DNA of 54,496 bases. Origin: Moraxella sp. Lineage in GTDB: Bacteria > Pseudomonadota > Gammaproteobacteria > Pseudomonadales > Moraxellaceae. The DNA lies in contig JAUNDZ010000013.1 in NCBI GenBank assembly GCA_030525825.1, positions 1 to 54,496 of the forward strand, in the 5' to 3' direction. Below are positions 13,908 to 19,050 of the stretch, one piece after another. The notes under the pieces are model-generated. The model worked only from the letters and a program-made list of their open reading frames with translations. It was not told the origin of the DNA and ran no database searches. How positions within the stretch are numbered: position 1 is the stretch's first letter; each line of letters opens with the position of its first letter. The translations under genes were made by a program, and so were the position numbers.

Positions 13908-14426
13908 TTAGGCTGGCTTGCGTTTTTTCTCCAAAAACAGCATGTCCCACACCACCAGCACCATGCCCACGCAGATGCCAATATCAGCGATGTTAAAAAT
14001 CGGATAATGCCACACATCAGCATAATGCACATGAATAAAATCAATCACATAGCCGTGAATAAAGCGGTCAATGACATTGCCAATCGCACCGCCCAGCACC
14101 AAAGCCAGCCCAAGCGACAGCACCTTTGCGGTACGGGGAATCTGGCGTAAATAACCGATAATAAATACCGCAACCACCAAGCCTAAGATGGCAAAAAAGT
14201 ATTTTTGCCAGCCGCCAGCATCAGCAAGAAAGCTAAACGCCGCTCCGTAATTATACGCCAAAGTCCAGTTTAAGACGGGCGGTATCACATCGACAGTCTC
14301 ATACAGCTCAAAGCGAGTGTTGAAATAAAACTTGGTCATTTGGTCGATGATAAGTATGACAAGGGCGATGAGATAGTAACTCATCGCTTTGTTGCCGTTG
14401 TTTGATGGGGTGTTGGTGTTAGGCAT
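13908..14426 (-). CDS. lspA: Lipoprotein signal peptidase (signal peptidase II)
   Basis: A 172-residue inner-membrane aspartyl protease that removes signal peptides from diacylglyceryl-modified prolipoproteins. Four hydrophobic segments are visible. The catalytic pair is Asp120 (GNVIDRF) and Asp148 (FNIADIG), and the first conserved Asp is in LIIDQMTKF. The ATG at 14426 lies inside the last codons of ileS, giving an 8-base overlap and translational coupling. A short polar tail of about 14 residues precedes the first membrane helix. It processes lipoproteins such as the META-domain lipoprotein at 46.8 kb. Confidence 0.95.
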   Translation of the reverse strand: MPNTNTPSNNGNKAMSYYLIALVILIIDQMTKFYFNTRFELYETVDVIPPVLNWTLAYNYGAAFSFLADAGGWQKYFFAILGLVVAVFIIGYLRQIPRTAKVLSLGLALVLGGAIGNVIDRFIHGYVIDFIHVHYADVWHYPIFNIADIGICVGMVLVVWDMLFLEKKRKPA

Positions 14427-17400
14427 ATTGACGCACTTCCCCATCACCGTCGATGTTGTCGATGCAGCGGCTGCACAGCTGTGGGTGCTGTGCGTGCGTG
14501 CCGACATCTGGGCGAATGTGCCAGCAGCGAGTGCATTTGTCGCCTGATGCAGGCGTGATGGCGGCGGTCAAGCTGTCGCCTGCCTGTACGGCGGCGTCTG
14601 ATGTGATGAACACAAAACGCAGCTCATCGCCAAGTTTGCTCAGTGCCGCTGCAATGTCGGCAGGGGCGGTGATGGCGGCTTTGGCGGTTAGGTTGCTGCT
14701 GATGATTTTCTCGCCACGAGCGTCTTCGATGGATTTGTTCACCGTATCTTTGATGGATAAGATAGCATCCCAGTCGGCAGTGCCAATCTCGCCCATGTCT
14801 GGTGTTGGTAATTCGTACCATTCAGCGGTAAAGATGTAGCCGTCTGTGCCTTTTAGTACTTGCCATGCTTCTTGGGCGGTGAATGATAAAATTGGGGTAA
14901 TCCATCGTAGCAAGGCATGAGCGATGTGATAAAGGGCGGTCTGTGCCGAACGGCGTGGCAGCCCATCTGCCTTGGTGGTGTAGGTGCGGTCTTTGATGAT
15001 GTCAAGGTAGAAACCGCCCAAATCCTGCGAACAAAAAGTAGTAACCGCCTGACAAACTTGGTGGAAATCCATGTTCGTATAAGAACGGACAATCTCGTCT
15101 TGGACGGCTTTGGTACGGTGCAAGATATATTTGTCTAGGCTGATAAGTTCATTAGCAGCCACCATGTCTTTGCTGGGGTCGAAGTCGTCTGTATTGGCAA
15201 GTAAGAAACGCACCGTATTACGAATACGACGATACATATCGGTGGTACGGTCAAAGCCTTCTTTGGAGACTGCCATCTCGTAGCGATAATCCGATGAGCC
15301 GACCCACAGACGCAGAATGTCCACGCCCAGCTTATTGGCGATGTCTGATGGCTCAAAGCCTTTGGTATTGCCCTTAGACTTAGACAGCTTATGACCTTTG
15401 GCATCTACGGTAAAGCCGTGTGTTAGTACTTGCTTATACGGTGGGCGACCGTAGATGGATTCGCCAACCAGTAGTGATGACTGGAACCAGCCACGATGTT
15501 GGTCAGAGCCTTCTAGGTATAAGTCGGCAGGATTTGACAGCTCGCCACGACTTGCCAATACCGCAAAGTTGGTCGCCCCTGAGTCAAACCATACATCTAA
15601 GGTGTCGCTGCACTTATTGTAAGTGTCAGCATCATCACCGATGAAGTCTTTAGTATCTGCTTCAAACCACGCTTCAACGCCACCTTGCTCGATGAGCTTG
15701 GCAGCTTGTTCCATCAGTTCGCTGGTGCGTGGGTGCAGCTCGCCTGAATCTTTATGAATAAAGAATGGGATCGGCACGCCCCAAGTACGCTGACGGCTGA
15801 TACACCAGTCAGGGCGACCATTCATCATGGATTCGATGCGGTTTTGTCCCCATGCTGGCGTCCAGATGACATCAGGAATGTCTTTTAGGGCTTGTTCACG
15901 CAGCCCCTTGGCTTCCATGCTGATGAACCATTGCGGCGTGGCACGGAAAATAATCGGTGTCTTGTGTCGCCAGCAATGCGGATAGCTGTGGCGGATTTTG
16001 TTGTGTGCCAGCAGATGTCCGCTTTGTTGTAGCGTCTCAATAATCTTGGGCTGTGCTTTATAAATATGCTCACCGACAAAAACTTTGGCTTCATCTAGGT
16101 ACACACCGTTACCTGCTACAGGGTTCTCGGTCGGTAGGTTATAGGCACGACCGACATTGTAGTCGTCCACACCGTGAGCGGGGGCGGTATGTACCAGACC
16201 TGTACCGCTGTCAGCCGTTACATGTTCGCCTGTGATGATGGGGACGATACGCTCGGCGATGAGTGGGTGTTGGGCTTTTAGGGTGGTTAATTGCTCGCCT
16301 TTAATGGTCGCTATAATTTCGGTGTTTTCTAGGTTGACATTTTTGGTAAAGTCTTCGGCTAGGTCTTTGGCGGTGATGAAATGAGCGGTGCGGTCAATGG
16401 GGTTGGGATTGGCAAGGGTATAATGCCACATTGTGCCGTATTCGTTTTCAAAATCATTTTGATAAATACCGCCTAATTTTTCTACGGCTTTTTTGGAGCG
16501 TTCATTGCCTTGATGAATGTTAAAATGCACAGTATTTGTAAATTTAAAGGCATGACTTAATAAAGCACGCTTAATTTCATCATTTGCTCCTTTACCCCAA
16601 TACTCAGGCGTGATAAATGAATAGCCAATGCCGATGATGTCATCTTTTGTATTGTCATCATAAAAACGGGTTGTACCGATGATGTCGCCTGTCTTTTTGT
16701 CGATGATGGCGAAGGCTTTTGCCTTGACCGCTTTTTCAAAAAAAGAATCAAATACTTCTGGCAGATGGCGTTTGGTTGGCATCAGCTCCCAGATTTTTTC
16801 GTCAGCAGCTTTATCTTGTAGCTCTGCTTTGTCGTCTTTGGTCAGTGTTCTTAGGGTAAAGTTTTCGCTGTTAATTTCGTTTGGAATGACAAAGGCGTTA
16901 ATCTTGTCGCCTTTAATGATGACATAGTCAAGCTCGGCATGAGCAGAGATGGCTTGGTTGGCAGGCAGTGTCCAAGGGGTAGTTGTCCAGATGACGGCTT
17001 GTAGCGTGCCTGCGATGTCGGCAGTCTGGGCAAGTGCATCACGATTTGCCACATCAAAGCCAACATAGATGGCGTCAGAAGTCTTATCTTCGTATTCAAC
17101 TTCGGCTTCTGCCAGCGAGCTGCCACAGTCTAGGCACCAGTTCACAGGCTTCATGCCACGCACGATATGACCGTTTTCATAAATCTTGGCAAGGGCTCGC
17201 ACGGTGTCGGCTTCTTGCTGAAAATTCATGGTAAGATAAGGATTTTCCCAGTCGCCAAGCACGCCCAAGCGTTTAAAATCCGCCATTTGTAGGGTAATCT
17301 GGCTTTTGGCGTATGCACGGCAAGCACCACGAAATTCGGTGGCACTGATGATGCGACCGTCTTTTTCTTGACCGACCTTACCTAAGATGCCTTCGACTTT

Positions 17401-17724
17401 TTGTTCAATCGGCAGACCATGACAATCCCAACCCGGTACATAAGGGGCGTCGTAGCCGTCTAGGGTCTTGTATTTGACGATGATGTCTTTTAATACTTTA
17501 TTGACGACATGACCTAGGTGAATCTGACCGTTGGCGTATGGGGGGCCGTCATGCAGGGTGTAGGTTTTTCGACCTTGACGGGCTTTACGAATTTGTCCAT
17601 AGACATCGTCTTTTTCCCATTGTTCCAGCCAAATCGGTTCTCGTTTGGCAAGGTCGCCACGCATGGCAAAAGTGGTATCGGCAAGGTTCAGGGTGTTTTT
17701 GTAGTCGGTGGTCGGCTCGCTCAT
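14419..17724 (-). CDS. ileS: Isoleucyl-tRNA synthetase with an inserted GNAT domain
   Basis: 1101 residues, about 160-170 longer than usual bacterial IleS. All standard landmarks are intact: the HIGH region PPYANGQIHLGH at 61-72, the CP1 editing segment SGTGLVHTAPAHGVDDYN at about 506-523, KLSKS at 779-783, and a C-terminal zinc site formed by CTRC and CSRC near 1064-1087. The extra length lies at about residues 275-446, between LDYVIIKGD and HFITAKDLAEDF of the CP1 editing domain. It reads as a full RimJ/RimL-type GNAT acetyltransferase, listed separately. The frame is continuous, so the fusion looks expressed. It is followed by lspA with an 8-base overlap. It charges tRNA-Ile and edits Val-tRNA-Ile; the effect of the insert on editing is unknown. 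Confidence 0.96.
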   Translation of the reverse strand: MSEPTTDYKNTLNLADTTFAMRGDLAKREPIWLEQWEKDDVYGQIRKARQGRKTYTLHDGPPYANGQIHLGHVVNKVLKDIIVKYKTLDGYDAPYVPGWDCHGLPIEQKVEGILGKVGQEKDGRIISATEFRGACRAYAKSQITLQMADFKRLGVLGDWENPYLTMNFQQEADTVRALAKIYENGHIVRGMKPVNWCLDCGSSLAEAEVEYEDKTSDAIYVGFDVANRDALAQTADIAGTLQAVIWTTTPWTLPANQAISAHAELDYVIIKGDKINAFVIPNEINSENFTLRTLTKDDKAELQDKAADEKIWELMPTKRHLPEVFDSFFEKAVKAKAFAIIDKKTGDIIGTTRFYDDNTKDDIIGIGYSFITPEYWGKGANDEIKRALLSHAFKFTNTVHFNIHQGNERSKKAVEKLGGIYQNDFENEYGTMWHYTLANPNPIDRTAHFITAKDLAEDFTKNVNLENTEIIATIKGEQLTTLKAQHPLIAERIVPIITGEHVTADSGTGLVHTAPAHGVDDYNVGRAYNLPTENPVAGNGVYLDEAKVFVGEHIYKAQPKIIETLQQSGHLLAHNKIRHSYPHCWRHKTPIIFRATPQWFISMEAKGLREQALKDIPDVIWTPAWGQNRIESMMNGRPDWCISRQRTWGVPIPFFIHKDSGELHPRTSELMEQAAKLIEQGGVEAWFEADTKDFIGDDADTYNKCSDTLDVWFDSGATNFAVLASRGELSNPADLYLEGSDQHRGWFQSSLLVGESIYGRPPYKQVLTHGFTVDAKGHKLSKSKGNTKGFEPSDIANKLGVDILRLWVGSSDYRYEMAVSKEGFDRTTDMYRRIRNTVRFLLANTDDFDPSKDMVAANELISLDKYILHRTKAVQDEIVRSYTNMDFHQVCQAVTTFCSQDLGGFYLDIIKDRTYTTKADGLPRRSAQTALYHIAHALLRWITPILSFTAQEAWQVLKGTDGYIFTAEWYELPTPDMGEIGTADWDAILSIKDTVNKSIEDARGEKIISSNLTAKAAITAPADIAAALSKLGDELRFVFITSDAAVQAGDSLTAAITPASGDKCTRCWHIRPDVGTHAQHPQLCSRCIDNIDGDGEVRQYA
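16387..16902 (-). other. GNAT acetyltransferase domain embedded in IleS
   Basis: IleS residues about 275-446. Family features in order are FTLRTLTKDD (start of the RimL-like fold), AFAIIDKKTGDIIGTTRF (the strand pair with the typical IG.t.F pattern), IGYSFITPEYWGKGAN (motif A, acetyl-CoA pyrophosphate loop, with Glu in place of the usual Gln/Arg), and NERSKKAVEKLGGIYQ (motif B). This DNA is visibly more AT-rich than the surrounding ileS sequence, which suggests acquisition from elsewhere. No frameshift or repeat marks the edges. Catalytic activity and substrate cannot be told from sequence. Confidence 0.85.
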
Positions 17725-17820: not shown

Positions 17821-19050
17821 CTAAGAATAGAGCTTTGGATACAAATTTTTATAATAACCATCTAGCTTGTCATCGCTAATTTGATAAAGATGAGCGATGG
17901 TAGTATTTTTAAAAATCGCCCAAGATAAAATAAGCAAAATGAGACAAATCACGCCATAAAAATAGCCTAGAAGCTCATGGTTTAGCACCCAAGTTGTCAA
18001 CAAAACCCCGATGGGAATAAAGGCAATACAACACGCTAAAAAGACAAATTCAAAACTGGCACGAATATGTTTTGGGGTGGCACTACAGCGAATGTGCGTG
18101 CTGTTGATGTTGAACATGACAACGCCTACGCCAATCATCATTAACGCCATACAAAAACCATAAAAATTATTCATGATGGATAGTAAGATACCAATAGCCA
18201 CCAATAGAATGCTGAATGCGACCGCCTTGTGGCTGCCAAGTGTTTTATTAACGATTTTTAAAAAATAAGCACTACCAATGATCATGCCGATACCAAAAGA
18301 GCTTTCGGCAATGCCAATATAAAACGCAGGCAAGTTGAATTGGTGGGCAATTTTATGGGGAATAATATAAGCGATGATTGGTGTGATGATGAAGTTGGCA
18401 AGCAATGATATAAGTACCATTATTCTTTCAACGGGGTGGGCGGATAATATTTTTAGAGCATTTGTCGCTTGGTGTTCTGTGTGGTCTTGTGGGGAGATGT
18501 TTTTTATGCCATAAAACAAACATCCACTTACTAAAGAAAGAAAAATACAACCAGCGATGATTTGCTGTGTTTTAAAATAATGAATGATGAATCCAGCAAT
18601 GGCGGGGGATAAAACGGTATTGATGGAATTAACAAAACCACGCACCTTAAAACCGTGCGATTTGTCTTTATCATCATATAAGTCATTGGTCAGACTTGTG
18701 CCTAATGGGTTTAATAGAATGCTAACAATAGAACTAACAACAAAAACAACACCAAAAATAAAATAATGATGAACAAAAGATAATGCTAAAAAAGATACCA
18801 AGCAGATAAAACAAAAAGACAATAGCAGCTTTTTGCGATGAATGGTTGCCGCTGATTGATGAAACACCCAAGAAAATAATAACAATGCCAATACTTGACA
18901 TGCCCAAGAGATGCCAATAAAAGCTCCCAAATGCTCAGAGTGATGAAATACAGTCAGCATGAGCCAAGCGAATAAAAAACCGATTGTTCTGATGCTCGTA
19001 TTAAGCAGGGTCTCTGCAAACTGATAAAGATAAAAATCTTTATGCTTCAT
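17821..19050 (-). CDS. MFS transporter, substrate unknown
   Basis: A 409-residue polytopic protein with about 12 hydrophobic segments and an MFS-like layout, including a loop between segments 2 and 3 with the basic stretch IHRKKLLLS. No specific subfamily motif was recognised; its general shape resembles small exporters of the EntS type. The DNA is clearly more AT-rich than the neighbouring genes, with many Lys/Asn/Ile AT-rich codons, suggesting horizontal acquisition. It sits alone, 96 bases upstream of ileS on the same strand and divergent from the uracil permease gene. Substrate and direction of transport cannot be inferred. Confidence 0.72.
   Translation of the reverse strand: MKHKDFYLYQFAETLLNTSIRTIGFLFAWLMLTVFHHSEHLGAFIGISWACQVLALLLFSWVFHQSAATIHRKKLLLSFCFICLVSFLALSFVHHYFIFGVVFVVSSIVSILLNPLGTSLTNDLYDDKDKSHGFKVRGFVNSINTVLSPAIAGFIIHYFKTQQIIAGCIFLSLVSGCLFYGIKNISPQDHTEHQATNALKILSAHPVERIMVLISLLANFIITPIIAYIIPHKIAHQFNLPAFYIGIAESSFGIGMIIGSAYFLKIVNKTLGSHKAVAFSILLVAIGILLSIMNNFYGFCMALMMIGVGVVMFNINSTHIRCSATPKHIRASFEFVFLACCIAFIPIGVLLTTWVLNHELLGYFYGVICLILLILSWAIFKNTTIAHLYQISDDKLDGYYKNLYPKLYS

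Follow-up and report, generated by a model that had tools for sequence, protein, structure and literature searches.

Class I aminoacyl-tRNA synthetases such as isoleucyl-tRNA synthetase (IleRS, encoded by ileS) are known to edit by hydrolysis, and IleRS is also a clinical drug target, namely that of mupirocin. ItaT, a GNAT-RHH toxin whose target is Ile-tRNA, is likewise a GNAT with a link to IleRS, whose product it modifies, but it is a separate toxin gene accompanied by an RHH antitoxin and does not lie inside a synthetase. By sequence, the closest solved chains to the domain described below are PacT (PA3270) and its homologues (8gxk, 8gxf, 8gxj, and 1yre), which have the GNAT fold; PacT binds Fur and is a stand-alone toxin with an Xre-type antitoxin, whereas our domain has no antitoxin gene adjacent to it. 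The MccE and RimL acetyltransferases, which represent a type of detoxifier that acetylates aminoacyl-adenylates or analogues of these, act in trans.

The same full-length architecture as that of our protein is already named in NCBIfam as NF040702.1 (ileS_w_GNAT, “isoleucine--tRNA ligase, N-acetyltransferase domain-containing”), which the IleS studied here matches end to end (model positions 1-1100) with 2213.1 bits against a curated cut-off of 1999. An earlier note on this DNA, which knew of no described IleS with a GNAT domain at this place, has to be corrected in this respect. NF040702 is a naming model, that is, a name and a score, and differs from a described system in giving no functional account of the fusion. 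We found no paper on the function of a GNAT-bearing IleS in the open-access literature, a scope outside which most subscription papers lie, and the accession NF040702 appears in no paper of the open-access literature searched; the portions of PMC5370406 and PMC6456759 available to us make no mention of an IleS-GNAT fusion. The IleS-GNAT architecture has thus been catalogued before, and what is new here is the history of the insert.

The GNAT domain and the synthetase that carries it

The window, that is, the whole stretch of 54,496 nucleotides of Moraxella sp. DNA that was analysed, carries ileS at 14419..17724 on the minus strand, where all the features below also lie. Its product of 1101 residues is indeed longer than usual, as the earlier note had stated, and by its motifs and profiles it is an ordinary full-length bacterial IleRS with a GNAT domain in its CP1 editing domain. 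TIGR00392 matches above its cut-off with 891 bits (NF040702, 2213 bits), and Pfam recognises four parts, namely the synthetase core of class I, an anticodon-binding domain, the zinc finger zf-FPG_IleRS at the C-terminus (residues 1061-1090, 14455..14544), and, internally, Acetyltransf_3. The HIGH-type motif GQIHLGH (residues 66-72, 17509..17529), the KMSKS-type motif GHKLSKSKGN (residues 777-786, 15367..15396), the T-rich editing motif WTTTPWTLPAN (residues 246-256, 16957..16989), and the second editing motif GTGLVHTAPAHGVDDY (residues 507-522, 16159..16206) are all intact and in frame, as that note had said of HIGH, KLSKS, and the editing motif. This is the single IleS found in a genome of 1.82 Mb that is 88.8% complete, two further matches being weak and spanning just 76 and 55 residues.

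Alignment to the insert-free IleS proteins of the genus, together with an insert profile, places the insert proper at residues 278-443 (16396..16893), so the block of 16387-16902 given earlier was correct to a few codons. Acetyltransf_3 (PF13302) covers residues 289-418 (E 6.3e-18, 66.2 bits, cut-off 25.4), and Acetyltransf_1 also passes its cut-off (29.7 vs 20.7), so a GNAT profile match does exist within residues 275-446, where its absence would have spoken against the domain. Residues 274 and 447, which flank the insert, align to two neighbouring residues, 259 and 260, in the solved chain 8c9e, which we take to be IleRS from Priestia megaterium. The domain, its location, and its motifs as given in the earlier note are right, and from the sequence the site looks like the turn of a CP1 beta-hairpin. 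The insert is AT-rich, as had been noted before, with a GC content of 0.40 vs 0.51 in the remainder of ileS, and it lies below the core in 10/10 carriers. Chance or mis-assembly as the source of the fusion is ruled out, given that ten genomes have one frame of more than 1000 codons containing the insert.

The neighbours of the window ileS are an MFS_1 transporter just upstream (17821-19050, minus), 96 bases away, a permease, and a signal peptidase II. The end of ileS is overlapped by the listed lspA ORF (13908-14507, minus), which has its signal peptidase II domain from residue 47; an internal ATG (MSYYLIALV) would abolish the overlap. MFS relatives occupy the same spot in carriers (G000, G021) and in non-carriers (G004, G009) of the insert, with other neighbours in other genomes. 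Neither an Xre antitoxin gene, as in PacT-type GNAT-Xre toxins, nor an RHH antitoxin, as in the GNAT-RHH toxins ItaT, AtaT, and TacT, was found beside ileS, and the GNAT is embedded in the synthetase.

Distribution of the insert and its movement within ileS

In a sample with one genome per species, 19 members of the genus have a full IleS, and 7 of them carry the insert, as do 3 of 6 in a sister genus. The 12 non-carriers of the genus have an IleS of 919-940 residues, with start sites chosen during the analysis, and therefore the insert is not a normal element of CP1. A block common to all bacterial IleS proteins, which the earlier note had considered as the contrary case, is ruled out by these 12 genus members and also by the fact that, among 398 phylum genomes sampled, the window IleS alone passes the NF040702 cut-off. 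The CP1 turn does vary in length, and G211 and G214 have short extra loops there. For G007, a complete, one-contig member of the genus, both searches that covered it came back without a candidate. In three further genomes (G730, G1429, and G1414), the open frame with the IleS match is 1179-1305 residues long and the match starts past the GNAT part; these may be fusions of another kind or frames that run far upstream. A record titled Streptomyces cinereus JCM 3040 (BMPS01000005.1) contains an ileS of the sister-genus type that has the same core and the same insert, without any difference, as G213; a real spread to that species is improbable, and a wrong label or contamination of the record is the probable cause.

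The insert did not simply descend with the gene. On a tree of the IleS core covering 34 of 41 loci, six insert changes are required, all of them forced by starred branches, and the insert label is more clustered than in most shuffles (4/500 equally low, near-copies included), so the insert travels partly with ileS. The rpoB tree, built from 26 genomes and with SH-aLRT support only, requires seven changes, six of them forced, and 199/500 shuffles are equally low. The clearest case is G012, whose core is 93.6% identical to that of the insert-free G005 and 76.4% identical to that of G021, and whose insert, counted together with the hairpin ends, has 83.2% identity to the G021 insert; along ileS, the base identity of G012 and G021 is 78-93% in insert windows vs 48-84% elsewhere. 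Conversely, the core sisters G000 and G021 have inserts that are 67.9% identical vs 87.0% for their cores. Core DNA rejects a clade of G021 and G012 (AU p 6e-66), and insert DNA rejects the clades G000+G021 (p 0.007) and G006+G017+G011 (p 0.019), these two insert p values being somewhat generous since the clades were named after the trees had been seen. G012 and the insert-free G005 and G002 have, by eye, the same upstream ORF and, in the flanking sequence covered, no lspA in any of the three, and with this common upstream flank the difference sits inside ileS.

Given that the insert and core trees conflict, loss alone is insufficient, and movement of the piece between species within ileS, by recombination inside the gene, explains the data best; an essential gene seems here to have traded an entire domain across species. 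As a separate observation, the IleS of G212, which belongs to genus g8, falls in a starred clade with the IleS proteins of four members of the first genus (G002, G005, G008, and G012), unlike its rpoB, which groups with g8, and ileS itself seems to have crossed genera there.

The acetyl-CoA site and the free-standing relatives

The nearest relatives of the insert that we found are a family of free-standing GNATs with the motif IWxxHP (for example, a 181-aa ORF in locus L048), mostly solitary and of about 170-220 residues, that is, not embedded in IleS as the insert is. The earlier note had proposed a search for the closest free-standing homologue, and it gave 26 near relatives, 26-34% identical to the window insert and sharing its acetyl-CoA-site residues. 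In an unrooted tree of the 10 inserts and 37 free-standing relatives, the latter taken from the strongest matches, all the inserts fall on one side of a branch (98/95); further relatives may exist. This fits one capture, and a single capture would be the simplest reading, the source being a family of small GNAT proteins that stand alone. Around ten loci of free-standing relatives, a survey by eye of the longest ORF of at least 70 residues on each side, within flanks of about 1.5 kb, found no recurring neighbour, although such a survey could miss small antitoxin ORFs. In locus L138 (1384-2808, plus strand), a free-standing-type GNAT and an inositol monophosphatase domain (PF00459, E 1e-58) form one fused protein, a similar ORF adjoins the GNAT in L139, and in L132 a regulator-like ORF lies upstream. 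A recent phage or plasmid source is not supported: phage records gave no insert match at E 1e-5, and the 11 matching plasmid records are all below 60% identity. The phage-borne acetyltransferase family phrog_1249 is a distant match (E 3.3e-9), none of the PADLOC models matched at E 0.1, and an aminoglycoside acetyltransferase family and KbpA in NCBIfam (E 0.005 and 0.007) fall far under their own cut-offs.

The residues of the cofactor site have persisted both in the inserts and in these relatives. Columns conserved in at least 9/10 inserts and at least 21/26 near free-standing forms include W312, P316, R319, G350, R353, W376, G377, N381, K385, N407, R409, S410, and K416; against this, G006 has Ser at G379 and G003 has Asn at K416. 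Seven of them (W376, G377, N381, K385, N407, R409, and S410) are present in 10/10 inserts and in at least 25/26 near relatives, with W376, G377, and N381 in all 26. Nine acetyl-CoA contacts are named for PacT in PMC9561280, and, mapped by alignment with an inferred numbering offset of 2, six of the nine (M47, G108, G110, N140, R142, and K149) are the same in the window insert, two are similar (T100 to Ser, L102 to Ile), and one is different (L141 to Glu). Within the segment N407-E-R409-S410 (16495..16506), N407 and R409 align with the contacts N140 and R142. The PacT-type acetyl-CoA loop W376-G-K-G-A-N381 (16582..16599) does not conform to the textbook pyrophosphate-loop signature Q/RxxGxG/A given in PMC5370406. 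The Asn at its last position is also found in the near free-standing family, in PacT, and in PacT homologues that bind acetyl-CoA in crystals, so the match is weaker to the textbook motif and not to the PacT-type loop.

One position departs from this conservation. At the column of M315 (16780..16782), His is found in 26/26 near free-standing relatives, unlike the inserts, which have M, L, or T in 10/10; M315 aligns, through a weak stretch of the alignment, with PacT M47, an acetyl-CoA contact. With the cofactor site kept and this residue, possibly near the acetyl group, changed, we read the replacement as pointing to a new acceptor.

The insert might instead be a folded passenger that is tolerated without any catalytic use, rarely removed cleanly and spread by hitchhiking on ileS recombination, which we regard as rather unlikely. 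Such a passenger would suit a CP1 turn that already varies in length, a label clustered on the core tree, and an insert that changes faster than its core, as in G000 and G021. On the other hand, five pairs have dS below 0.7 (G021-G012, G017-G011, and three g8 pairs), and their insert dN/dS is low, 0.08-0.15. In close pairs with unsaturated dS the insert is under weaker constraint than the core (for example, 0.12 vs 0.11 in G017-G011; 0.08-0.15 vs 0.06-0.08 in the g8 pairs), and over all 45 pairs, many of which have saturated dS, its dN/dS rises to about 0.37, higher than the core. Folding alone could account for these low values, and the argument that an intact ORF means a working GNAT must be dismissed because the frame is forced by IleRS itself. 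The acetyl-CoA-site residues, however, are unchanged in inserts as little as 45.7% identical, and in a passenger the cofactor site would have no reason to persist; moreover, G012 and G005 differ inside the gene next to a common upstream flank, so the piece also moves alone. Taken together, the sequence comparisons support a functional acetyl-CoA enzyme tied to IleRS.

Possible substrates at IleRS

All carriers (10/10) have both editing motifs, the T-rich one and GTG-HTAP, intact; of 23 non-carriers, 22 have an identical T-rich motif, and for the second motif 12 are identical and the other 11 of the same type. The insert, therefore, does not replace a lost editing site, and this also weighs on the idea that the GNAT acetylates aminoacyl-tRNA(Ile), either mischarged Val- or norvalyl-tRNA, or Ile-tRNA under stress, with the CCA end at CP1, as a second, non-hydrolytic quality control or as a translation brake relieved by peptidyl-tRNA hydrolase. 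We consider this idea unlikely, yet it is favoured by PacT and its homologues being the nearest solved relatives, given that PacT is reported to acetylate aminoacyl-tRNAs (PMC9561280). AtaT and other GNAT toxins are likewise reported to acetylate aminoacyl-tRNAs, and the insert sits in the very domain that receives the CCA end. Nevertheless, with the editing motifs intact there is no editing gap to fill, the patchy on/off distribution is odd for a fidelity function, and between the MFS ORF and the overlapping lspA ORF there is no space for an antitoxin gene directly beside ileS.

Another proposal makes lysines the target of the GNAT, on IleRS itself or on a partner protein, so that charging would be linked to the acetyl-CoA level. 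A tethered enzyme could easily modify its own host, RimL-type GNATs act on proteins according to the MccE paper, and a 2017 paper cited in PMC6456759 reports, by its title, a regulation of aminoacyl-tRNA synthetases through lysine acetylation in E. coli. No core column, however, is Lys in 10/10 carriers and Lys in at most half of the 23 non-carriers, which argues against a carrier-specific target lysine and leaves a shared lysine or a partner, and patchy presence is odd for regulation as well. We hold this proposal to be quite improbable.

Because the insert is patchy in its distribution, has been exchanged across species, and coexists with hydrolytic editing motifs that are intact, we favour detoxification at the target rather than a function in fidelity, and read the insert as an accessory defence or resistance trait and not as housekeeping proofreading. 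In a broad form, with a likelihood that we put not far below even, the synthetase would have a second chemistry in its editing domain: the GNAT would cap, on site, the amino group of aminoacyl-adenylates, of their antibiotic mimics, or of mischarged tRNA, as a removable cassette that species trade within an essential gene. In a narrower form, which we offer tentatively, the insert would fold and be an acetyl-CoA-dependent, catalytically active N-acetyltransferase, an accessory and locally useful trait, and would transfer the acetyl to the amino group of an aminoacyl-adenylate or its mimic, the presumed substrate, at IleRS, that is, at the target itself.

Placed in the editing domain, an acetyltransferase would amount either to a novel form of quality control or to resistance borne by the drug target itself, and the question is directly testable because nature provides on/off pairs of close species, such as G012 with the insert and G005 without it.
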